Shown: positions 15,326-26,700 of the stretch, one piece after another
Layout: every line of letters starts with the position of its first letter
Position numbering within the stretch: the stretch's first letter is position 1
Virus record (IMG/VR): IMGVR_UViG_3300027796_000042
Location: 1 to 26,866 of that record
Direction: 5' to 3' (one strand)
DNA from: a virus
DNA: 26,866 nt
Position numbers and translations under genes: made by a program
Notes under the pieces: generated by a model
Databases searched by the model: none
Told to the model about the DNA's origin: nothing
What the model saw: the letters and a program-made list of their open reading frames with translations, nothing else

Positions 15326-15342
15326 AGTAACGAACTGTTACT
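15326..15342. promoter_or_regulatory. Repressor operator O1
   Basis: AGTAAC (15326-15331) and GTTACT (15337-15342) are perfect inverted arms around five bases. It shares the AGTAAC/GTTACT core with O2, 26 bases away. It lies between the early promoter and the early genes, so a bound repressor would block leftward transcription. Confidence 0.8.
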
Positions 15343-15367: not shown

Positions 15368-15386
15368 TAGTAACGTTTCGTTACTA
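15368..15386. promoter_or_regulatory. Repressor operator O2
   Basis: A perfect 19-base palindrome, TAGTAACG-TTT-CGTTACTA. It covers the expected start site of the leftward early promoter. The near-identical core of O1 indicates the same protein binds both, most likely the divergently encoded S24-type repressor; the Ner-like protein is the alternative. Confidence 0.85.
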
Positions 15387-15436: not shown

Positions 15437-16141
15437 ATGAGGAAATATCGTAATATTATGAATTGGATACGAATAATCGACAGTATTGAGAAATATTACC
15501 CGAATGAAAGTATTGCAAAACGCCTAGATGTGAGGCCGCAATTCATTTCTGACTTAAAATCTGGAAAGTCAAAGAATCCGGGAGCCGATTTTGTGTTACG
15601 ATTAATCGACGTATATAAGATTAATCCAAATTGGCTACTTACGGATGAAGGGGTAATGATCCTTGAATCGAGTAAAGTTCTAGACGCCACCCCTACCAGA
15701 ATCCCTCTTCTTAAGCAAACGGCTTCATGTGGGCCGGGGCAGGACTGGGGCGATGCGGACATGGTCGAGGACTATATCGAGCCGCTTGCGCTCGTCCCCT
15801 CCCTTCGCGGGGCAAAGGTTTATGCCTTTCGGGTTCGCGGTAGTTCGATGATCGGCGCAGGAATTTATGATGGAGATATAGTCCTGTTCGACGGGCAGGA
15901 AAACCTTGCGCCGTCCGACGACCTATATGTGTTTGCGTTGGACGGTTCAGTTTACTGCAAATTGCTCAAGTTCGACCCGATCAGCCATCGAATCCAGATT
16001 TACTCGGTTCATTCGGCGGAACTGGAAAAGGCGGAACTTATCAAAGTGATCGATACCGACAGCCCGGACCAGATCGCCGCCTTTCATGTCTTTGGTCGTA
16101 TCTTGGCATGGGTACGCGAAAATCGTATGGTGTACCGGTAA
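15437..16141 (+). CDS. Phage repressor, HTH plus S24/LexA-like autoprotease
   Basis: This 234-residue protein combines an N-terminal HTH (SIAKRLDVRPQFISDLKSGKS, residues 25-45) with a C-terminal S24 domain. The likely nucleophile is S137 in VRGSSMIG, the general base K175 in SVYCKLLKFD, and the cleavage bond C98-G99 in TASCGPG. It should keep the prophage silent by binding the AGTAAC operators and be inactivated by RecA-stimulated self-cleavage after DNA damage. This differs from Mu c, which is not an S24 protease. The ATG at 15437 is preceded by GAGGA; a second ATG at 15458 is less well placed. It is transcribed away from the early operon. Confidence 0.92.
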   Translation: MRKYRNIMNWIRIIDSIEKYYPNESIAKRLDVRPQFISDLKSGKSKNPGADFVLRLIDVYKINPNWLLTDEGVMILESSKVLDATPTRIPLLKQTASCGPGQDWGDADMVEDYIEPLALVPSLRGAKVYAFRVRGSSMIGAGIYDGDIVLFDGQENLAPSDDLYVFALDGSVYCKLLKFDPISHRIQIYSVHSAELEKAELIKVIDTDSPDQIAAFHVFGRILAWVRENRMVYR

Positions 16142-16162: not shown

Positions 16163-16630
16163 ATGAATAGAACCATAAAGATTGTATTACTTGTTGCGAT
16201 ACCTGCATTGATCTTAATTTCTATTATTGCAGGATGGCTGGGAGAACGGAGCGTTACCTCGCTACACAATTTTGGATGTTATTCTATGGCTTACTCTTGG
16301 TCTGAGCAAGAAGGAGAACATCAGAACTTGGCAGAACTTTACGTTTGTAACGGCCCCTTGGATATTGATACATTGCAAAGGCTATGTTCAAAAAAGAAAA
16401 GGCTGTATGAGCATGGAAAATATTCCTCTTACACTCTAGTGGTATTCGCAGACAAGAACTCCGTTTGTCGCTCAAATAATCCAATAACGGCCTTGTATGG
16501 TGATGAGCTTGAAAAGCTTCAGCATATAATTGCGTTTTACTCGTATGTCCCGAGCAACGGATATTCACAGCTTGAGTATTACGCCAAAAATGCTGCAGAA
16601 AGCATGAGCAAAGAAATAAAGGTTCAGTAA
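16163..16630 (+). CDS. Membrane-anchored hypothetical protein cotranscribed with repressor
   Basis: This 155-residue protein has an N-terminal hydrophobic anchor (residues 6-24, KIVLLVAIPALILISIIAGW) and an extracytoplasmic-looking domain with four cysteines (FGCYS, VCNGP, RLCSK, SVCRS), which could form two disulfides. It starts 22 bases after the repressor stop with AGGAG upstream and is followed by a strong terminator, so it is expressed in the lysogen. I recognise no family. A superinfection-exclusion or lysogenic conversion role is suggested by context only. Base composition is more AT-rich than the morphogenesis genes. Confidence 0.7.
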   Translation: MNRTIKIVLLVAIPALILISIIAGWLGERSVTSLHNFGCYSMAYSWSEQEGEHQNLAELYVCNGPLDIDTLQRLCSKKKRLYEHGKYSSYTLVVFADKNSVCRSNNPITALYGDELEKLQHIIAFYSYVPSNGYSQLEYYAKNAAESMSKEIKVQ

Positions 16631-16640
16631 CGATCCTGCC

Positions 16641-16668
16641 GCCCCGGATGAATTTCCGGGGCTTTTTT
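16641..16668 (+). terminator. Terminator of the repressor operon (CCCCGG family)
   Basis: A 7-bp stem GCCCCGG/CCGGGGC (16641-16647 with 16656-16662) around an 8-base loop, followed by six T. It has the same stem as the terminators at 7046-7068 and 18223-18243. Confidence 0.92.
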
Positions 16669-16750: not shown

Positions 16751-16832
16751 CCGTTAGAAAACCGTTAGAAGGTAAAAATGAGATAGTTTGACACAAACCG
16801 CCCCGCCCTGCCATTTTTCGTGATAAACTATC
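16751..16832 (+). promoter_or_regulatory. Promoter and operator region of the Rex-like operon
   Basis: CCGTTAGAA occurs twice, at 16751-16759 and 16762-16770, eleven bases apart. GATAGTTT (16782-16789) and AAACTATC (16825-16832) are perfect inverted arms. The right arm overlaps an extended -10-like TGATAAACT (16821-16829), about 37 bases before the start codon. A tight regulator site covering the promoter is likely. The TTGACA at 16788-16793 is too far from this -10 to act as its -35. Confidence 0.5.
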
Positions 16833-16865
16833 CCTATCAAAGAAAACCAATTCAGGGGATGGAAT

Positions 16866-17786
16866 ATGGCAAAAAAGGAAGTGGCCTTACGATGTTATGA
16901 AATTAAGTCTGTATCCGAGTCGGTGTCAAAAAGCGATGAGCTTTATGATGATTTTCTTCAATTTATGAAAGGAACGCGAACGGTAGAGAATCGCGTAATT
17001 CGTTTTACAGATGCCGAGCATGATGGCGAATCAGATTGTGTATCCTATTTTGAAGAAATAAAGGGAACACTTTTTTGTTTCATGTTTCGATCGCATGCCG
17101 GGACGCCTATCACCATAGACTCGGAGTTTTTAAGTAAGCCATCAGTTACGCCTGAACAAATGCTTACAGAAAATGATGAAACGGCGCTTGGTTTCATTAA
17201 AGCCCATACTTATATTCTTATGAACAAGCACTTCATCGTATTTCGAAGTGGACAGCTCAAGGCAGAGGATATCTCGATCTACATACGTCAGATCCTAAAA
17301 GGAACCCCTAAGTACGCAAAAAAGGAAGTCTTATTCACAATTAAACCATGTCTAAAATCTACTTTCGATAAATCGCGTATAAAATCATTAGAGTTGAAAA
17401 GCGGATACCGATTGAATGAAAGGTCTGTAGTTTCGTCGTTCGTTCAAAGAATAGAAGACCAACTACTTAAATCGGTACTTGACGCCAAGGATATCGCGAG
17501 AATAAAACCTGAGAATATTATTGAAGCCAGTGTAATGCTTCGGTTCAAGAAACCAGATACAACGACTGAAGAAGACGTCTTGCGAAGTTTTTTAGGATCT
17601 GTTAACACTGATGATGCGATCATTCGAGACAAGCGCAACCAAACGATCAAGCCGGATGAAATTCTCTTGAGAAGCTATCCGCGTGTAAGCTTCTTAGCCA
17701 ATAACTACCCGGATCGAGCCGAGATTTTATCTGAGATGCTATCGCTATTACATGAGGCAATAGATGATAAAAAAAACCATAACTAG
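16866..17786 (+). CDS. RexA-like phage-exclusion protein
   Basis: This 306-residue soluble protein resembles lambda RexA (279 residues) by pattern. Shared features by eye include a DETALGF motif (about residue 108) where I recall DESLGF in RexA, preceded by a TPEQML-type helix where RexA has SVEDIK, followed by an alternating beta strand pattern (YILMNKHFIVFRSG), then FTIKPCLK where RexA has an IEPLMR-like strand. In lambda, RexA is a cytoplasmic DNA-binding sensor that activates the RexB membrane channel upon superinfection. The gene lies downstream of the repressor and overlaps a four-TM partner gene, the same context as lambda rexAB. The similarity is from memory, not from an alignment, and needs a profile search. 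Confidence 0.65.
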   Translation: MAKKEVALRCYEIKSVSESVSKSDELYDDFLQFMKGTRTVENRVIRFTDAEHDGESDCVSYFEEIKGTLFCFMFRSHAGTPITIDSEFLSKPSVTPEQMLTENDETALGFIKAHTYILMNKHFIVFRSGQLKAEDISIYIRQILKGTPKYAKKEVLFTIKPCLKSTFDKSRIKSLELKSGYRLNERSVVSSFVQRIEDQLLKSVLDAKDIARIKPENIIEASVMLRFKKPDTTTEEDVLRSFLGSVNTDDAIIRDKRNQTIKPDEILLRSYPRVSFLANNYPDRAEILSEMLSLLHEAIDDKKNHN

Positions 17787-18213
17787 ACTACTAATTATCG
17801 TAGTTGTGTTCATCCTTTTTTCGATGATTTCACTTCATATTCCCAGCAAACCTGCTGACTTGTTTTATACAATTGCAGGAATTATGTTCTCGATAGCGTT
17901 TAGTCAGTTAATATCTTTTGATCTTACGAAGATAAAAAACGAGTTAATCTATACTAGTTTTTTTAAAAGTATCGAAGAGGTTAAGTGTGGTTTTTTCCTG
18001 TGTTTCTCATTGTCTTCAGTAGCGATATTATTACTAAATGTTCCGAAGTCGCTCCCTGAAATTTCAATCAAGCAATTTACTTTCAAGATAGAAAGTCTTT
18101 GTATGCTATTTCTGCTTTACTCGATTTTGTATTTTGTTATGAACTTCGAGGTATTGTATAAAACTAAAAACAAAATCGATAAGATGATACGACAAGAGCA
18201 AGAATGCGAGTAG
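17764..18213 (+). CDS. RexB-like four-helix membrane protein
   Basis: This 149-residue protein has four hydrophobic helices: about residues 9-26 (LLIIVVVFILFSMISLHI), 33-53 (LFYTIAGIMFSIAFSQL), 76-94 (FFLCFSLSSVAILLLNV) and 111-130 (CMLFLLYSILYFVMNF), then a charged tail ending RQEQECE. Lambda RexB has 144 residues, four TM helices and a TREQE ending. RexB forms an ion channel that depolarises the cell when activated by RexA. The start overlaps the RexA-like stop by 23 bases, indicating coupled translation. The topology is plain; the family assignment is inferred from the pair. Confidence 0.62.
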   Translation: MIKKTITRLLIIVVVFILFSMISLHIPSKPADLFYTIAGIMFSIAFSQLISFDLTKIKNELIYTSFFKSIEEVKCGFFLCFSLSSVAILLLNVPKSLPEISIKQFTFKIESLCMLFLLYSILYFVMNFEVLYKTKNKIDKMIRQEQECE

Positions 18214-18222
18214 CGATTCAGA

Positions 18223-18252
18223 GCCCCGGATAACCTCCGGGGCTTTTCTTTT
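18223..18252 (+). terminator. Terminator of the Rex-like operon (CCCCGG family)
   Basis: A perfect stem GCCCCGG/CCGGGGC (18223-18229 with 18237-18243), loop ATAACCT, then TTTTCTTTT. It separates the lysogeny genes from the rightward late operon. It is nearly identical, in inverted orientation, to the hairpin at 7046-7068. Confidence 0.93.
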
Positions 18253-18315: not shown

Positions 18316-19296
18316 ATGAAAACACGAACGAGGGAAATTGCGAAAGTCGGGATCTTTGGATCGATCGACAACCCCACCATCGTCACGGAAAAAGACCTCA
18401 AAGAGATCGCGGAAACCTTCCCGGAAATCAAGAAGGCGCCGGTACAGTTCGGACACTGGGGGGACGCGGCCAATCCCCGGCTCGCGAATGTCGTTGCGGT
18501 CAAGTTTGATCCCGTTGCGAAATCACTTTCAGCCGACATCGACGAAGACGAAACGCTCAGCAACGCCGTCGAGGAGGGGTATTACCCCGACGTATCGATC
18601 GGCGCGAAACAGCGCGCTTCGGACGGCAAGATGTATCTTCATCATCTCGCATACCTCGGACAGGAAGCGCCCGCGGTCAAGGATCTCATCGACTCCATCA
18701 AGGGGCCGCTCGGGATCGCCGCGTCCGATGTCGCGGATGTGCGCCTCATGCCCGCCCCGAGTTCTCGTGCTCTCATTCTTTCCGAGCCCTTTAATGAAAA
18801 TAACATAAAGGGAAATGAAGGAACGCCGCCTGCGGCGAGTCCGAACCCGGGCTCCAATCCCCCCGCAGGCGGCAAGACTTCATCTCCAAATCCCAAGGAG
18901 GAAACCCAAGTGACGGAAGAAAAGGCTGCCGAAATTCAGGCAGAAAACAAGCGTCTCAAGGACGAAAACGATCGCAAGGACATGCTTCTTTCCGATTCGG
19001 AAAAGAAGCAGAAGGACGCGGAGAAGGACAAGCTTCGCGCCTCAATGGACGGTCGCGTACCGAAGGCCATGCAGGATCGCGTCGTCGCGCTTGCCGATTC
19101 CTTCGACGACGCGAAGACGATTGTGCTTTCCGACGGCGATGCGAAGCGCACGCTCCGTCCGACGGAAGTCCTCGCTGAGGTCTTCTCCGCGCTCCCTCCG
19201 CTGGTCGAGCCCGGAGCCCTCAATCTGAGCGACGGTGATTCCGCCGCGTCACCTGTTAAGCCCGGCGCCGCGCGCGCCATGATGGGCCACGTATAA
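18316..19296 (+). CDS. I: Mu gpI-like head maturation protease with scaffold domain
   Basis: This 326-residue protein matches the Mu I protease family. The N-terminal protease region includes APVQFGHWGDAANPRLANVV (about residues 42-61) and then NAVEEGYYPDVSIGAK and LHHLAYLGQEAPAV, conserved-looking segments of phage prohead proteases. A proline and glycine-rich linker (residues 160-195) joins it to a charged, helical scaffold region ending in a short C-terminal segment. The protease cleaves the scaffold and itself as the prohead matures. An internal start gives the scaffold alone. The ribosome site at 18316 is weak. Confidence 0.88.
   Translation: MKTRTREIAKVGIFGSIDNPTIVTEKDLKEIAETFPEIKKAPVQFGHWGDAANPRLANVVAVKFDPVAKSLSADIDEDETLSNAVEEGYYPDVSIGAKQRASDGKMYLHHLAYLGQEAPAVKDLIDSIKGPLGIAASDVADVRLMPAPSSRALILSEPFNENNIKGNEGTPPAASPNPGSNPPAGGKTSSPNPKEETQVTEEKAAEIQAENKRLKDENDRKDMLLSDSEKKQKDAEKDKLRASMDGRVPKAMQDRVVALADSFDDAKTIVLSDGDAKRTLRPTEVLAEVFSALPPLVEPGALNLSDGDSAASPVKPGAARAMMGHV
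18910..19296 (+). CDS. Z: Nested scaffold protein, Mu gpZ-like (internal in-frame start)
   Basis: A perfect AAGGAGG lies 8 bases before an in-frame GTG at 18910 inside the gpI gene, just after the flexible linker. The 128-residue product (VTEEKAAEIQAENKRLKDEN onward) is the coiled-coil scaffold domain alone. Mu encodes its scaffold Z the same way, as does lambda C/Nu3. The ribosome site is far stronger than that of the full gene, consistent with scaffold being made in excess of protease. Confidence 0.82.
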   Translation: MTEEKAAEIQAENKRLKDENDRKDMLLSDSEKKQKDAEKDKLRASMDGRVPKAMQDRVVALADSFDDAKTIVLSDGDAKRTLRPTEVLAEVFSALPPLVEPGALNLSDGDSAASPVKPGAARAMMGHV

Positions 19297-19307
19297 GGAG
19301 TGGAGCT

Positions 19308-19652
19308 ATGAATTCAGTCGTTGGTACTGTCGACGTCACCGAGGATCCGATCCTCCGGGGCGATCATCACATCGTAACCGCGTTTCCGCTCAAGGATGGC
19401 CTTTCGGGCCTCAAGAAGGGAATGCTTCTCAAGGTCGATACCGGCGAGTATGTCCCGTGCGCGGGAACCGGTACCGAAGATCCCGTCGCGGTACTTCTCG
19501 AAGTACCAACGCTTCCTACGTCGGCGGCCGTCGAGCCTGTTGCCGTGCATGGCGGCGTCCGGCGCGATAAGCTCGTCTATTCGGACGGGACCACCGCGAT
19601 CACCGATGCCTATGTGGAGCTGCTCCGCAAAAACGGCATCTACGCAATCTAA
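19308..19652 (+). CDS. Head decoration protein, lambda gpD-like
   Basis: This 114-residue protein has the size, beta-rich composition and position (between scaffold and major capsid) of a gpD-type decoration protein that trimerises on the capsid surface and stabilises it after DNA packaging. Features include GLKKGMLLKVDTGEYVPC (residues 35-52) and the family-like VAVHGGVRRDKLVY near residue 78. The ribosome site GGAG precedes the ATG. It starts 12 bases after the gpI stop. Confidence 0.8.
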   Translation: MNSVVGTVDVTEDPILRGDHHIVTAFPLKDGLSGLKKGMLLKVDTGEYVPCAGTGTEDPVAVLLEVPTLPTSAAVEPVAVHGGVRRDKLVYSDGTTAITDAYVELLRKNGIYAI

Positions 19653-19672
19653 AGGATTGAAGGAGAACAAAT

Positions 19673-20665
19673 ATGTCTATCAATGTTTCCGGAACGCTTC
19701 GTCCGTTCTTTACCCAGGACGCCATCGCTGAAGCGGTCGCGTCGATGCCCAAGCCGCAGACCCCGCTGACCGATCTCCTCTTTCCGATCGCGAAGCGCAA
19801 GCAGAAGACCAGCCCCTATGTCGCCGAAGGCGATGTTGAGGATGTCGTCGGATCGGTACCGGTAATCCGCCGGGGCGGCGCTTCGTATTCGGTCGACGGC
19901 AAGTCGACGGGTATCAAGCTCATCGAGGTACAGCCGATTTCTCTCAACCGTTTCGTTACGGGCAAGGAGATCAACGACCTTATTGCGCTCGGAACCAAAA
20001 CCGACATACAGGCGTTTGTGAACGAGGGGATCGAGTACCTCCGCGACAAGACGAGCCAGGCGACCGAGATCCTCGTCCGTCAGGCTCTGTCCGGAAAAAT
20101 CGAATATCCCATGGCGACGGCCGGATCGCTCGCCGAAAAGTACACCGTAAATTTCGGCACCATCAAGACGCTTGATGCGGTTACTATCGCTTCCGATGAC
20201 CTCGCCAAGCTCCAGGTGAAACTGGAAAAAATCTACCAGGCTCAGCTCGCTACCGGAGCGTCCGGCGATATCCGGATTCTCTGCGGAGACGATGTCTACC
20301 AGAAAATCGTTGCGATTGTTGTCGCGGCTGGCTCGATCGCACCGGTCGTATGGACCGAAACCGGCCTCACGCTCTTCGGAAAGTACAAGATCATGACCAT
20401 GGGCATGACGTACGTGCTCCCCGGAACGTCCGCAGCCGTCCCCGTCATCCCGACCAATTTCATCCAGACCGTCGACATCACGAACGCGGGACAGCTCTTC
20501 TACGCCGCCCTCGACGACCTGGACTCGAAGCTCGCGCCGCTTCCGTTCTACGCGAAGCCGGTCAAGATCGACGACCCGTCCGGCTACAAGATCATCTCCG
20601 AGTCGAAACCGCTCCCGGCGCCCGCGATCAGCAAGATGCGCCGCCAGCAGTTCTTGCCGGCATAA
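19673..20665 (+). CDS. Major capsid protein, lambda gpE-like
   Basis: This 330-residue protein resembles the major capsid protein E family (HK97 fold). The N-terminus (FFTQDAIAEAVASMPKPQTP, LTDLLFP) and central segments ISLNRFVTGKEINDLIALG and LRDKTSQATEILVRQALSG match the expected pattern, followed by the P-domain-like central part and a C-terminal KLAPLPFYAKPVKIDDPSGY strand. AAGGAG precedes the ATG. It forms the icosahedral shell around the scaffold made by the upstream gene. Confidence 0.9.
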   Translation: MSINVSGTLRPFFTQDAIAEAVASMPKPQTPLTDLLFPIAKRKQKTSPYVAEGDVEDVVGSVPVIRRGGASYSVDGKSTGIKLIEVQPISLNRFVTGKEINDLIALGTKTDIQAFVNEGIEYLRDKTSQATEILVRQALSGKIEYPMATAGSLAEKYTVNFGTIKTLDAVTIASDDLAKLQVKLEKIYQAQLATGASGDIRILCGDDVYQKIVAIVVAAGSIAPVVWTETGLTLFGKYKIMTMGMTYVLPGTSAAVPVIPTNFIQTVDITNAGQLFYAALDDLDSKLAPLPFYAKPVKIDDPSGYKIISESKPLPAPAISKMRRQQFLPA

Positions 20666-20676
20666 GGAAGGAAAGG

Positions 20677-21144
20677 ATGAGCGATATAGCCGAATTGGGA
20701 CTTGACGGCATAGCCGTCCACGGAAAACGCCCGGAAATCGAGATTTCCCCGTTGGGAACCGCGATCACCCCTGATGAAGTTTCCGACCGGCTGTCTGCGA
20801 ATCTCTACAAGCAATTAAGCGATGGCAGCACGGACACGACCGCCGCTGCCATCGCCCGTGCTGAAATCTACGTCGGAACGATCTTGCGCCGCCTTGGCGT
20901 CGACTTCAACCTCGACAACAAGGTCGTTCGCGAAATAATTCTGCTTAACGTGGTCTACGAGCTCCATATCGCGCTCGGGCACGAAGAAGCAGGACGCGAA
21001 TATCGAATGAAGGCGAAGGATATCATCCTTGCGGCCTTCGGCGATTACCCGGATACCGACAACAAGGCTCCGGGTAACCCGCCCGCCGCTGCGGTCGCCG
21101 TACCGCCGAGGCGGGGCGTTCCGGGTCTTTATGGACGCGCTTGA
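20677..21144 (+). CDS. Mu gp36-like head-tail connector protein (DUF1320)
   Basis: This 155-residue protein starts at the ATG at 20677, preceded by GGAAAGG. It is mostly helical (ITPDEVSDRLSANLYKQLSD, AIARAEIYVGTILRRLGVD, IILLNVVYELHIALGHEEAG, YRMKAKDIILAAFGDY), the pattern of DUF1320/gp36 proteins placed after the capsid gene in Mu-like phages. It likely joins head and tail at the connector. Its last 14 bases overlap the next gene. The proline and alanine-rich C-terminus is not conserved in my recollection. Confidence 0.78.
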   Translation: MSDIAELGLDGIAVHGKRPEIEISPLGTAITPDEVSDRLSANLYKQLSDGSTDTTAAAIARAEIYVGTILRRLGVDFNLDNKVVREIILLNVVYELHIALGHEEAGREYRMKAKDIILAAFGDYPDTDNKAPGNPPAAAVAVPPRRGVPGLYGRA

Positions 21145-21703
21145 AGATCTTGAGCGGAAGCTTGCGAGTCCGCGGGCGCGGCATCTCATCGGGCAGATGG
21201 CCGTTGACGCAATCCGAACACGGCTTGTAAAGGGAGAGGGGTTTGCTCCTCTTTCCGGGGCAACGAAAGAATACCGGGGAGGAAACGCAAAACCGCTGCA
21301 GGACACGAGTAGTATGCGGGAATCGTTCAGCTATCGACTGGACGGTGAAAGCGGCATCGTCGTTGGTTCGGATAATAAGGTAGCCGCCGTTCAGAACGAC
21401 GGCATGACGATCCGCGCGAAGAAGACCTGGCTATTTATCCCGGCTTCGGCTTTTACCAGGCAGCTCATGCGCCGGTACGGCTACAGCCCCAAGGAAGTGC
21501 TCGCGGGTCTCAAGGGTGACGGCTATTCGGTGTTCCGCGCGGGCCGAGCGGTCGGGTATCGCGCGAAACGGAAAGTTAACGGCGAGTACAAGATAACGTG
21601 GGTTTATTGGCTCAAGAAGGAAGTTGTCATCCCGGCGCGAAGGTTCTTTTACCTCGATGAGAACGATCTTCGAACGATGTTCGCCGAGTTGGAGTTGATT
21701 TGA
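21131..21703 (+). CDS. G: Virion morphogenesis / tail completion protein, Mu gpG-like
   Basis: From the ATG at 21131 this is a 190-residue protein; the longer frame to 21029 overlaps the gp36-like gene. It has the Phage_tail_S (PF05069) pattern: GFAPLSGATKEYRG, KPLQDTSSMRESFSY, IVVGSDNKVAAVQNDG, and VVIPARRFFYLDENDL near the C-terminus. Proteins of this family complete the tail or head-tail junction. In Mu the gene lies right after F; here it is instead in the rightward operon after the gp36-like gene, as in siphovirus-type relatives. Confidence 0.85.
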   Translation: MDALEDLERKLASPRARHLIGQMAVDAIRTRLVKGEGFAPLSGATKEYRGGNAKPLQDTSSMRESFSYRLDGESGIVVGSDNKVAAVQNDGMTIRAKKTWLFIPASAFTRQLMRRYGYSPKEVLAGLKGDGYSVFRAGRAVGYRAKRKVNGEYKITWVYWLKKEVVIPARRFFYLDENDLRTMFAELELI

Positions 21704-22140
21704 TGAAAACGATGGAAGCCCTGGACTTCTTTATCGCCCAGCTTTCGCGAGGGATCTCGCTCGGCGACGACAAAACGAAAGTCGTGCTTACTCCGTCAAG
21801 CATTGACGAGAAAGGGCTCGTTATAAAGGTAGGTCTCAAGAAAACCTACTTGAGCGCGCAAACGCAAGTCAGGTCGACGCGGATGTTGAAAATCAGGCTC
21901 GCCGTTGCGGGGTCGATCGAGTCTATAACGGGACTTTCCCAGGCGGTAAGCGCGATCGAAGCGATCGATGCCTATCTGGAAAAGCCCCGGAATCTTGAGA
22001 ACGAATCCGGGGAGCCGATCGCGGACACGCGTATTCTTCAGACCGTATCCCAGGAGGATTCGTTTATCGATTCCCCCGACTCGACTGAAGTACAGGACGC
22101 GCTTGATGAGCGCCTTATCACGATAACGATTCCAGAATAG
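21703..22140 (+). CDS. Mu gp37-like tail terminator-like protein
   Basis: The ATG at 21703 overlaps the previous stop (TGATG), giving a 145-residue protein. It has an N-terminal helix (MEALDFFIAQLSRGISLG), a beta sheet with LVIKVGLKKTYLS and RMLKIRLAVAG, a helix (ESITGLSQAVSAIEAIDAYL) and a C-terminal strand LITITIPE, the fold order of phage tail terminators or gp37-like minor tail proteins. It lies between the gpG-like gene and the tail tube, where a terminator is expected. The family match is by pattern only. Confidence 0.65.
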   Translation: MKTMEALDFFIAQLSRGISLGDDKTKVVLTPSSIDEKGLVIKVGLKKTYLSAQTQVRSTRMLKIRLAVAGSIESITGLSQAVSAIEAIDAYLEKPRNLENESGEPIADTRILQTVSQEDSFIDSPDSTEVQDALDERLITITIPE

Positions 22141-22149
22141 GAGGGGACG

Positions 22150-22293
22150 ATGGCAGGACCACTGGTCGAGAAGACCGAATACGAAACCGACGAGCAAGGA
22201 CGTACGTTCCGGAAGGGAACGCACCCCGACGATAAAACCGCGAAAAGTACCCGCGCGGGCGACTCAAGTAGATCCCAGGAGGAAAAGAAATGA
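22150..22293 (+). CDS. 47-residue small protein between tail terminator and tail tube
   Basis: AGGAGGGG precedes the ATG at 22150; the frame runs to a TGA that overlaps the tail tube ATG at 22290. The product is hydrophilic and charged (MAGPLVEKTEYETDEQGRTF) with no recognised domain. A small gene sits at the same place in Mu (gp38), though I see no sequence match. Strong ribosome site and overlap with the next gene support expression. Confidence 0.65.
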   Translation: MAGPLVEKTEYETDEQGRTFRKGTHPDDKTAKSTRAGDSSRSQEEKK

Positions 22294-22988
22294 GCGACGA
22301 AAAAGCGCTTGAGCTTATTGGCGATGATAGCCAAATCTTTACCGGAAAAATCGCCGCGACCGAACTGGTCGGCGATGGAACGAAAACTCTCGATGCCTTG
22401 GGCGGCGGTACCGTCGGCGACAAATCCGGGGCGGGCATGTACATCGTGACGGCCAAAGGATCGACATCGTTCTTTCCGTCGCTTTTGAACGTCGGGGAAC
22501 TGTATCCTGCAACCGGATCAGAAGTCCTGGTTGTTGGCGATAAGGTCAAAAAACTGGTGCTGGCTCAGATCGCCGACGCGACGGGATGGAAGCTTTCAAT
22601 CACCCGGAACAAGGTCGATACGACCCGTCTTGCGCATCGCTTCAAGAAGTATCGCCTCGGGAAGTACGACGCGACAGGAACCCTCTCATCGATCTTCACC
22701 ATTGGCATCACCGACGCAAACGACGGCCTCATCGCGAAGACCATGAAGACGTTCAAGAAGGCAGCGAGCGGGACGATCACCATCCAAGAAGTCGACGACA
22801 GCCCGCTTTACTTCCTCGGGTACGTCCGCAAGACTGCCGTGTCGGGAGAGACCGAAGATTTCGTTTTCGGTCAGATATACATCCACGATATGACTCTCGG
22901 AGGTCAGTCCGGAAGCGCCCAGTCGTACGACGCCAACATGAGCCTCACGGGCCTCGATCCGGTGTTCTACTCGATCGACATTATCTGA
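22290..22988 (+). CDS. Major tail tube-like protein
   Basis: This 232-residue protein is placed right before the tail chaperones and tape measure, the usual site of the tail tube gene in long-tailed phages. It is beta-rich, with DDSQIFTGKIAATELVGDGT at the start, a central TKKYRL-like basic part, and FGQIYIHDMTLGGQSGSAQ near the C-terminus. No tail sheath gene precedes it, which argues for a non-contractile tail. Family membership is inferred from context and composition. AGGAGG is upstream. Confidence 0.72.
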   Translation: MSDEKALELIGDDSQIFTGKIAATELVGDGTKTLDALGGGTVGDKSGAGMYIVTAKGSTSFFPSLLNVGELYPATGSEVLVVGDKVKKLVLAQIADATGWKLSITRNKVDTTRLAHRFKKYRLGKYDATGTLSSIFTIGITDANDGLIAKTMKTFKKAASGTITIQEVDDSPLYFLGYVRKTAVSGETEDFVFGQIYIHDMTLGGQSGSAQSYDANMSLTGLDPVFYSIDII

Positions 22989-23005
22989 CGAAGGAGAAAC
23001 GCAGA

Positions 23006-23410
23006 ATGGCAATCAAAATCATCACGAAAGAAAAAACTTATATTCCGAAGTTCGACGGAAACCGCTCCGAGCCGCCTGAAAATCAGTGCGTCGTCCGCTA
23101 CAGGACAGCGACGATGGAATTGAAAGGCCAAATCGTCTCTTCTCCCGTCGCGATCGGCGAGTTCGACGCTGCAGGCAAGAGTACCGGAATGAAAGTCGAG
23201 ATCAAGCAGAACGACGAACTCACGATCCGGAAGATGATTGTCGACATCACTCACCTAGGATACCAGGAAGAGGGCTCCAACGACATCACCTATATCTCAG
23301 GTGGCGCGGATCTCCTGAAAGCCCCGGTCTACTACGAGCCCCTTATCAAGGAGCTTCTCGTGGTGCTGAACAAGGAGCTGAAAGCAGACGGTGTAGACCA
23401 AAAAAACTGA
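23006..23410 (+). CDS. Tail assembly chaperone, short form (G-type)
   Basis: This 134-residue protein lies between the tail tube and tape measure genes, where lambda-like phages encode the tail assembly chaperone. It has a beta-rich N-terminal part and an acidic, helical C-terminal part (EPLIKELLVVLNKELKADG). AAGGAG precedes the ATG. Its last sense codons are CAA AAA AAC, directly followed by TGA, forming a slippery heptamer. A fraction of ribosomes should shift -1 and produce a longer form with the downstream domain. The chaperone binds the tape measure protein during tail assembly. Confidence 0.8.
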   Translation: MAIKIITKEKTYIPKFDGNRSEPPENQCVVRYRTATMELKGQIVSSPVAIGEFDAAGKSTGMKVEIKQNDELTIRKMIVDITHLGYQEEGSNDITYISGGADLLKAPVYYEPLIKELLVVLNKELKADGVDQKN

Positions 23411-23739
23411 GAATTGCTTACCGCGTCTTTAAGGCCGGTAAGCAAAATACGCGGATCAGGGAATCCCGTCGCGATCGCTTGCTCTGGAATACGGGCGTGC
23501 TTGATGAAAACGGACAGACGATCTTTATCAAGGCGATCGACGCGGGAACGTACCTGACGGAGGAGTTCTATCAGGCTCTCCATATTTTCTATACCACAGA
23601 AAATCTTGGCGTTCTGCCGTTCGCGGGAGGCTGGGCTGAGCAACCAGAATGGATCGTTACGGTTCTGACGACGCTCAAGGCCGAGCAAGCTCGCATCGAA
23701 CGCGAGGAAATCGAGGAACGCAAAAGAAACGCGAAATAA
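23006..23739 (+). CDS. Tail assembly chaperone, long form (GT-type) by -1 frameshift
   Basis: If ribosomes slip back one base at A AAA AAC (23401-23407), translation continues at CTG (23407) through LRIAYRVFKAG to the stop at 23737-23739, giving about 244 residues (134 + 110). The second domain has no plausible start of its own: the first in-frame GTG/TTG codons are 70 or more bases in and lack a ribosome site. The T part is helical and charged (EEFYQALHIFYTTEN, EQARIEREEIEERKR). This mirrors lambda G/GT, in which the long form recruits tail tube subunits to the tape measure. Confidence 0.85.
23401..23443 (+). other. Programmed -1 frameshift site: slippery heptamer and stimulatory hairpin
   Basis: A AAA AAC (23401-23407) is in the correct phase (X XXY YYZ), followed at once by the zero-frame TGA. 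After an 8-base gap a perfect 8-bp stem GCTTACCG (23416-23423) with CGGTAAGC (23436-23443) and a 12-base loop forms. All parts of a canonical bacterial -1 signal are present with textbook spacing. Confidence 0.88.
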
Positions 23740-23754
23740 GGAGGTACCGGATAA

Positions 23755-26700
23755 ATGGGCAACCAGAAAACAACGCTGGAACTGCGAATAGAACTCGCGG
23801 CGAAAGAGGCCCAGGCGTCCGTTATCTCCCTAAACGCGGATACCGTACGGCTCGCGCAAACTTTCAAAGACATGAATCTCGGAACGACAGCGAGCCAGGC
23901 CGCCATGAAGAAGCTGGAAACGTTCACTGCATCGGCCGCGAAGCAGATGCAGGTGTTCGGTGCCTCGTCGTCGGACGTTCGAAAGGCGCAGGCGGCGATC
24001 CAGTCTACCGTAAGAAAACTCATCGACGATGGTATCGATCCAGAATCGGAATCAATAAAAAAGCTAGCCGCAGAATACAGGAAGCTGGGCGATCAGTCCA
24101 AAGAGCTTGATGACGTCAATAACTCGAACCTTGAAGGCTTCAAAAAGCTCAAGGACGGTATCGCCGCGTCCGCCGCTGCGGTAGCGCTCGTTAAGGTGAT
24201 AGGCAAAGCTCGCGAGTTCGGCTCCTTTGCCCTCGAGTCCGCCGATACCTTCCAGAAGGCACGAAACGAGTTTGGAACCCTGCTCGGGGACATGGAGGCC
24301 GGCGCGGGCCTTTTTGACCGGATCAAGGAATTCAACGATTTTACTCCGTTCAATCTGGATACGACGAAACAAGGCGTGAATGTGCTTTTGTCTGCAGAGG
24401 TACCGCTGTCCGATCTCATTACGAAACTAACCATGTTCGGTGATCTTTCGCAGGGAAACTCCCAGAAGTTCACGAGCTTCATCAACGCATTCGCAAAAGG
24501 CGCGGCAAAAGGCGCTGTTGACATGGAAGTTTTAAACGTGTACGGCGATCAAGGCATTCAAATTCTCGCTGAACTCGCTAAATCGTATGACACAACGAAG
24601 GCTGGCGTTATCAAGATGGCAAGCGAAGGGAAGGTCTCTTTCGAGGACTTTTCCGCAGCCCTCGAGCGTCTTACCGCCGAGGGAGGGCTATATTACGGTG
24701 GGATGGCTCTCGGCGCTAAGGATCTTTCCGCCATGCAGGAAGGGCTCACCGAGTCCGTAACAGGACTCGCGGCAAGTTACGGTTCGATGTTCCTTCCCGT
24801 TGCCAAAGCGGTGTACGGAATACTTACGAATATCACGAACGCAATTAATGACAGCCCTATCCTAAAAGGATTACTCGCGGCGGCAATTACTGGTCTCGTT
24901 TCCGCCTTGGTTATAGCTACGGTAAAAACTATTGCACATGCAGTAGCGAAATGGTCTGAGTTTTCCGCAATCATGGCGGTTAACAGCGCCTTGTCGGTTA
25001 CACAAATCGCTTTAGGTATTGCGATTGCCGCGACAATGATCGCCGTAACGGCATCCACTGCGTATGCCGCATCTCAGCAAAAAGCCGCAAGCGCGACGGC
25101 AGCAACGTCTCTTCGGATGCAAGAACAAACTCAGTACGCCAAAGAAACGGCAGCAGCTATAAATAAATGTCGCGATGCGTATAACGGAATGAGCGACGCT
25201 CAGCTAAACAATGCATTGGCGGCTGCACAGTGGAGCTATGCCCAATCCATGGCTGATTCAAGTCGATACCGATCGCAGGGGAATACGTCGATGGCGAAGG
25301 AGCTGATGCAGCAGGCCAATGCCGCGAAAGCTAATATCGACTCAATTATGTTGATTTTTACTAACCGTAAAGAGTCCTTCATTGATGATCTCTACAAAGA
25401 TACCCTCGACGCCAAGCTGAAATCCTTGCAGGATCAGCTCACGAAGGCGAAGGGGTATCTCGGAGATCCTTCAACGACTCAAGCCCAGAAGGACAAGATC
25501 TCGGCGATTATCGTGAAGCTTCAGCAGGAAATCGCGGACGCGAGTAAGAAGGCAAAGATCACGGTCTCGCTCGGGACTGATTGGCAGGATAAAAACCTGT
25601 CCGGTCTCGAAGCTCTTAACAGGGAGCAGGAGAAATCCGTCGAGTCTCTCAATAAAAAGGCGCAAGATGTCTATAGGAACAACTACGAGACCCAAGCCGA
25701 TTATATTGCGGAGCTGGCCGCCCTGAACGACTATTATGACTCGAAGCGGATGGGAGAACTTAAAAAGGCCCATGACCTCCGGATACAGAGAATCAAGGAA
25801 GAGATGGAATATCAGGCTCTTCTTGCTCGTCAACAGATTACTGACGGAAACACTTCTGTCTCAAGCTACGTTAATTATACTGCTGCGACCGTAAAGAATG
25901 AAGGAGCATCCGCACTAGGCAACACGGATGTTGGCGAGTTTATGACGTCCTTTAAGGAAAGCGGAAACTGGATCATTGCCGTCATTGATACCGTGGTCAA
26001 CGCGATCATGAATAATCTTGATAGCCTCGAAACGTTCGATGTTCTGGTTAACGGCGTCTCCGAGGCCATTAAAGAACTAATGGTGATTATTGGGCCGTTC
26101 CTGGACCAAACCGCTCGCCCAACGCAGGATCTCGTTAATTCTCTCGCGAGATTACTCGCAACAGTCGTAATGCCTGCACTCAAGGTTATTGGGCCTGTAC
26201 TGACGCTGATAACGAATCTGCTCAACATGTTCGTGATTGGAATAACGTTCGTCATACAGGCTTTGAACTTCTTCGGGAATCTCATGACATTTGGGTTGAT
26301 GGGAAAACTCGCTTCATCGATTACAGATATCAATAACTGGTTTTCGGATCTTTCCGACTCATCGGCTGAACTTACGAAATCGCTGGAAAAGGCAAAGGAC
26401 GATATTAATGACTTGTACGACGCAAAGATCGACGCGGTTGAATCCTTGCTCGATGCCCAGATTGATTCTCTGAAGAAGAAACTAGAGCTTGGCCTGATAG
26501 GATACGATGAATACGTGGCGCAGGCCACTTCGTATAATGAATCTGCCGGAGATACTATCGATGCGCTCGACGAAGAACGGAATAAGATGCTTGAAGACAT
26601 CGAAGAACAGCTTGCCGATCAATCGAACTCGATGGTCACAAGCCTTTTCGCTGATGATCTGGCGGATAGCCTTATATCAGGTTTCATTGAAGGAATTGGA

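Follow-up and report, generated by a model that had tools for sequence, protein, structure and literature searches.

To our knowledge, Rex of phage lambda, encoded in the gene order cI-rexA-rexB, is the oldest known abortive-infection system. In lambda, Sbash, CarolAnn and the Pseudomonas putida pair RexABpp, the A protein senses infection and a four-transmembrane (four-TM) protein is triggered, the result being membrane damage and an arrest of growth (PMC12894663, PMC6426596, PMC6426606). Five Rex systems have been described so far according to a 2026 count (PMC12894663). In IMG/VR virus record IMGVR_UViG_3300027796_000042, the whole 26,866 bp of which were analysed (hereafter the window), we found an overlapping gene pair, designated A and B, that probably constitutes a RexAB-type, prophage-expressed two-component phage-exclusion (abortive-infection) system belonging to a nameless sequence family, in which A would sense infection and B would damage the membrane.

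Lambda RexA and RexB (PF15969/PF15968; PDB 8TWQ) resemble this pair in gene order, in size (279/144 aa against 306/149 aa in the window), in the four-TM nature of the second protein and in the location downstream of CI, and RexA may share with the predicted fold of A a two-domain layout with a C-terminal helix and RdgC as a structural relative. They differ in that no sequence homology to A or B is detectable and that rexA and rexB lie 15 bp apart, in place of the 23-bp overlap in the window. Moreover, unlike in lambda, a terminator separates the window pair from the repressor, making the pair a unit of its own.

The gene pair and its surroundings

The window carries a Mu-like gene set consisting of MuA (DDE_2, E 1.6e-10), a MuB-like AAA ATPase, GemA, Portal_Mu, Mu F and a lambda-E-type capsid protein, in agreement with the Mu-like phage recognised in a preliminary description made from the sequence alone. 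The features of the region containing the pair are the following:

15437-16141, + strand: CI/LexA-like phage repressor (Peptidase_S24, E 1.2e-11; HTH_19), context lying outside the A-B system
16163-16630, + strand: 155-aa ORF with a hydrophobic N-terminal segment, between the repressor and the pair
16641-16662, + strand: terminator-like hairpin (intrinsic) upstream of the pair, with a similar hairpin in the relative L002
16760-16865, + strand: conserved non-coding leader/promoter region of the pair, seen in the alignment with L002 and holding an inverted repeat
16866-17786, + strand: gene A, encoding a soluble protein of 306 aa, the proposed RexA-like DNA-binding sensor with an RdgC-like predicted fold
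17764-18213, + strand: gene B, encoding a four-TM protein of 149 aa, the proposed RexB-like membrane effector
18220-18246, + strand: terminator-like hairpin (intrinsic) downstream of the pair, from the hairpin search

The ORFs and their hydropathy bear out the earlier account of an overlapping pair in which a soluble protein precedes a four-TM protein with a charged tail. Thus, the highest 19-residue Kyte-Doolittle mean in protein A is only 0.91, and protein B has four hydrophobic segments (near residues 9-27, 33-51, 75-93 and 112-130) besides the charged tail. Members of the B family share the motif Y-x3-G-I-M/F-F-S-I, with invariant Y, G, I, F, S and I. In L002, the 81% relative, which has the same neighbouring genes as the window, the counterparts of A and B are each about 80% identical. 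Comparison with these counterparts gave pS values of 0.78 and 0.82 for A and B, at which synonymous sites are saturated, and pN values of 0.11 and 0.12, with a pN/pS of about 0.15 for gene A. Such low pN against saturated synonymous sites indicates strong purifying selection on both genes. The gene pair is genuine and more than a matter of chance ORFs.

Gene A starts 725 bp past the end of the repressor gene. The pair had been placed directly after the repressor, but the 155-aa ORF and the upstream terminator-like hairpin intervene. This ORF showed no meaningful family match in Pfam, PADLOC, NCBIfam or PHROGs, and is missing from L002. The two hairpins on either side of the pair are the best terminator-like candidates of the region, as the preliminary description had proposed, and the lower GC content that it noted is also evident (39.6% in gene A and 31.6% in gene B, against 56.6% in the structural genes at 18316-24000). 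Its claim of a promoter dyad belonging to the pair was upheld only in part: an inverted repeat, GATAGTTT / AAACTATC, is present in the leader before gene A (16782-16789 / 16826-16833), whereas sigma-70-like sites in the region are no more frequent than by chance (5, against 6.8 expected). Roughly 100 bp preceding gene A are conserved between the window and L002. Upstream of the repressor gene, two similar dyads, GTAACGAACTGTTAC (15327-15341) and GTAACGTTTCGTTAC (15370-15384), are likely candidates for repressor operators.

Sequence searches and predicted folds

Neither A nor B gave a meaningful match in Pfam, PADLOC, NCBIfam or PHROGs, and neither matched the RexA/RexB models (PF15969, PF15968; PADLOC RexA, RexB), to which lambda RexA and RexB, run as positive controls, matched at 1e-97, 9e-92 and 9e-110, 9e-61. 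Pfam likewise gave no match for CarolAnn gp44/gp43 or for the RexA-like protein of Sejanus, so a protein without a match may still be Rex-like. Profile searches of A and B against the PDB returned chance-level matches only. Direct homology to lambda RexA/RexB was rejected, as hhalign gave 0.09-0.9% and column shuffles scored as high in 24 of 150 cases for RexA and 5 of 150 for RexB; the RexA alignment is collinear with A (AC 217-308 against RexA 171-257), suggestive at most as its score is non-significant. Thus, the profile comparison with RexA/RexB that had been proposed as a check yielded neither a library match nor an hhalign score above chance. Since hhalign did not link lambda RexA to CarolAnn or Sbash either (0.16%), the method is low in power here.

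The RexA-like motif order first proposed (DETALGF followed by IKPCLK) is not conserved. DETALGF is kept in the 81% relative only and not in the other family members, and IKPCLK (residues 159-164) differs in position from lambda IKPKFK in the only collinear alignment, so that both were discarded as evidence for RexA. DUF4747, considered as a bridge, had no member in 369 genomes, where the control was likewise without any match.

An AlphaFold model of A (24 sequences; the family alignment of A is designated A5) reached pLDDT 73 and pTM 0.72. In it, seven N-terminal strands are followed by a second alpha/beta domain, poor mid-way (much of residues 180-249), and then by a long C-terminal helix, an order of elements also reported for RexA. 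The two best PDB matches of the model are the RdgC structures 2owy and 2owl (prob 0.95-0.96; third match, 0.06), with E values of 1.2e-3 and 1.7e-3 and TM-scores of 0.22-0.25, no PDB match falling below E 0.001. RdgC 2OWL is the structure to which Dali matched lambda RexA, with a Z of 4.4 (PMC11077077). RexA itself (8TWQ) is absent from the best 50 PDB matches of the model listed; hence the suggested structural comparison led not to RexA but to its reported relative, and not to an unrelated family. In view of these E values and TM-scores, the match is support rather than proof that A has an RdgC-like fold. RdgC (PF04381; PDB 2OWL, 2OWY) is, unlike A, a chromosomal recombination modulator with no membrane partner, and A has no Pfam match to its family and no profile similarity to it (hhalign, 0.43%). 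The model of B shows four helices (pLDDT 81.5), and its fold search gave no informative match.

The rex slot and the proposed mechanism

In the lambdoid coliphage PhiR68_2, the gene order is cro, cI, A, B and then gam-bet-exo, and in phage TCUAN1 a LexA-like repressor and a 71-aa ORF precede A and B. The corresponding order in Perceval is cI-C-CB-kil-gam-bet-exo, in which CB is a TM protein, and Acinetobacter phage phi1_092021 has LexA/CI and a 71-aa ORF, then this sister C pair instead of A-B. The 71-aa ORFs of TCUAN1 and phi1_092021 are identical at 70 of 71 residues. The occurrence of either A-B or the C pair in the same slot shows that different soluble-plus-membrane pairs swap in one position. 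Members of the C/CB (Perceval-type) group are phages Perceval, SfIV, Ab1656-2 and phi1_092021 and the loci L058 and L085; this Perceval-type pair, like A-B, has members in the rex slot as well as in Mu-like prophages. C and A are homologous (hhalign 96.8%, E 2.4e-10; 98.2% with more sequences), whereas homology between B and CB was not detectable (hhalign 0.27%), and CB, with 167-214 aa, is longer than B. One CB (L071, 3987-4490) weakly matches the PADLOC 4TM effector model (E 0.0014).

Gene order, topology, the rex slot in lambdoids, constant pairing and the RdgC-like fold match together give good support to a RexAB-type function. The first suggestion of such a system was therefore probably right in kind, whereas the sequence basis offered for it is unsupported. 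We file the pair as a variant of the RexAB-type two-component exclusion systems, outside the lambda RexA/RexB sequence families. Because the family sits in the place of lambda rexA/rexB, the pair probably excludes other phages via membrane damage, and we infer this mechanism because lambda, Sbash, CarolAnn and RexABpp work in this way, with A sensing and triggering a four-TM protein. Presumably, A is a cytoplasmic, probably dimeric DNA-binding protein of the RexA/RdgC type that would sense the infecting phage, perhaps via replication or recombination intermediates, and would then activate B. B, a four-helix protein presumably of the inner membrane, may oligomerise and make the membrane leaky, upon which growth and infection would stop.

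Other described pairs fit this arrangement to different degrees. RexABpp (PP_5643/PP_5644), compared by description only, is likewise a prophage pair, separated by intervening genes from a CI-like repressor upstream, and combines a soluble DNA-binding protein with a four-TM effector (PMC12894663); RexBpp is longer than B, and a mutation at Y181 has been reported in it (PMC12894663). CarolAnn gp44/gp43 and Sbash gp30/gp31 are also two-gene Rex-like exclusion systems with overlapping genes, the CarolAnn pair lying directly downstream of the repressor. They differ from the window pair in having larger A-proteins (370 and 372 aa) and no hhalign similarity to it (0.08-0.1%).

The division of labour could be the inverse, in the manner of a toxin-antitoxin pair, with A as the effector held at the membrane by B. 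Such an arrangement is known for one Rex-like pair, Butters gp30/gp31 (PMC12894663, citing the Butters study), and B is the effector in the other described Rex-like systems, lambda, CarolAnn, Sbash and RexABpp (PMC12894663). The window sequence favours neither arrangement, and we regard the inversion as very unlikely. Kiwa combines the same kinds of protein, namely one with four TM segments (150-200 aa) and a soluble one (about 310 aa), so that by its logic (KwaA/KwaB) B might sense the attachment of phages at the membrane and A might act as the DNA-binding effector. This assignment is highly improbable, however, since the gene order is reversed (KwaA comes first in the comparison locus L083), Pfam KwaB and PADLOC Kiwa gave no match, and hhalign yielded 0.07% against KwaB and 0.12% against KwaA; membership in Kiwa was accordingly rejected.

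The location next to a repressor bears on another reading, in which the pair is a lysis-lysogeny regulator: A would bind the operator or other phage DNA and modulate the CI/Cro switch, B would antagonise A, and exclusion would be incidental or absent. Indeed, lambda RexA modulates the switch and RexB opposes RexA (PMC11077077), and most annotated phage members adjoin a repressor; the window, L003 and L004 have the pair in the immunity region with a CI-like repressor upstream, and L071, L072 and L074 have the sister pair in such a position. However, this location does not hold for L051 and L056, which lie outside phages, beside an McrBC-like and methylase cluster and between chromosomal genes, respectively, with no repressor in the stretch read. 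Nor does it hold for the Mu-like L058 and L085, in which the sister pair adjoins a Mu G-like and a Mu F-like morphogenesis gene, respectively, and no repressor. As the window pair, moreover, has its own terminators, we consider a purely regulatory role unlikely, and exclusion remains the preferred reading. The pair may also modulate the lytic switch, alongside exclusion or in its stead.

B might also be a holin or another lysis-associated membrane protein, A being an unrelated moron gene. A PHROGs holin match of B is weak (E 0.14), and one sister B is annotated as holin-X. Against these stand the almost constant association of A and B, the distance of the pairs from the lysis cassettes in PhiR68_2 and Perceval, and the pairs outside phages (L051, L056), which together make a lysis function scarcely credible compared with exclusion.

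Pairing and distribution of the family

A scan of viral sequences with the B alignment found 35 loci, at all of which (35/35) A overlaps B or lies directly upstream, in the same A-then-B order. The scan with A found 11 loci, each being a pair or lying on a contig already known to carry one: L002 is a pair, L046/L047 is a diverged pair with an ATGA overlap, and the rest are on contigs of the B set. Genome searches with the A profile revealed further pairs (L086, L088), B following A directly in all confident matches checked except L090. The latter, a diverged relative of A (E 5e-20), has 426 aa, carries an acidic insert and lies close to a RecQ-like C-terminal fragment; it has no adjoining B-like ORF of at least 70 aa and is thus an apparent orphan A. 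The survey of homologues for conserved pairing, suggested at the outset, therefore found the two together throughout the B scan, and this one orphan in the genome searches with the A profile. A-B is a strictly paired family, nameless in the libraries searched, and we found no laboratory test of any member in the literature searched.

The first distant relatives, in Acinetobacter phage TCUAN1 and coliphage PhiR68_2, were obtained by tblastn. Scanning genome contigs with the single sequence of A gave no match, and scanning them with the B alignment gave seven loci. Scanning genomes extended the family to Photorhabdus, Xenorhabdus, Leminorella, Gilliamella, Acinetobacter, an Alcaligenaceae bacterium and Halpernia (Bacteroidota), the copy in Halpernia being situated, as in the window, in a Mu-like genome (Portal_Mu, Mu F). 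The pair is uncommon, occurring in 42 of 5,426 complete E. coli genomes and in 2 of 369 class-wide genomes, the latter count including the query genome and the remote relative L058. At L051 (5055-6444), the pair is located between a TniQ/Mu-transposase element and an McrBC-like pair (a DUF2357/PDDEXK_7 gene and an AAA gene) with a C5 methylase; these surroundings are a defence-gene neighbourhood.

An unannotated paired family in the rexAB slot, present in lambdoid and Mu-like phages and in two phyla, offers many natural variants for probing which signal RexA senses. Profile libraries overlook this Rex-like class, the accepted CarolAnn proteins among it. We suggest tentatively that RexA-like exclusion could be a large, ancient and fast-diverging superfamily of RdgC-fold sensors with interchangeable, non-homologous four-TM effectors, missed by the defence libraries searched, whose cassette would be shuttled among lambdoid phages, Mu-like transposable phages from both Proteobacteria and Bacteroidota, and one or more non-phage elements situated among defence genes.

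Several individual loci deserve mention. Two genome matches (L091, L092), situated in ORFs of about 200 aa directly downstream of an mnmA-like gene, presumably hflD, were set aside as due to chance. In TCUAN1 (L003, 5833-6288; ON531988), the annotation of the B gene begins only at 6070, and the first half of the protein is thereby lost. Two nearly identical copies of the pair (L093/L094) occur in one genome (G783, contig C2), in one of which A is broken by an in-frame stop and B is intact. In one E. coli genome (NZ_CM166349.1, 2782993-2785224), the pair region is split by an IS1 element.
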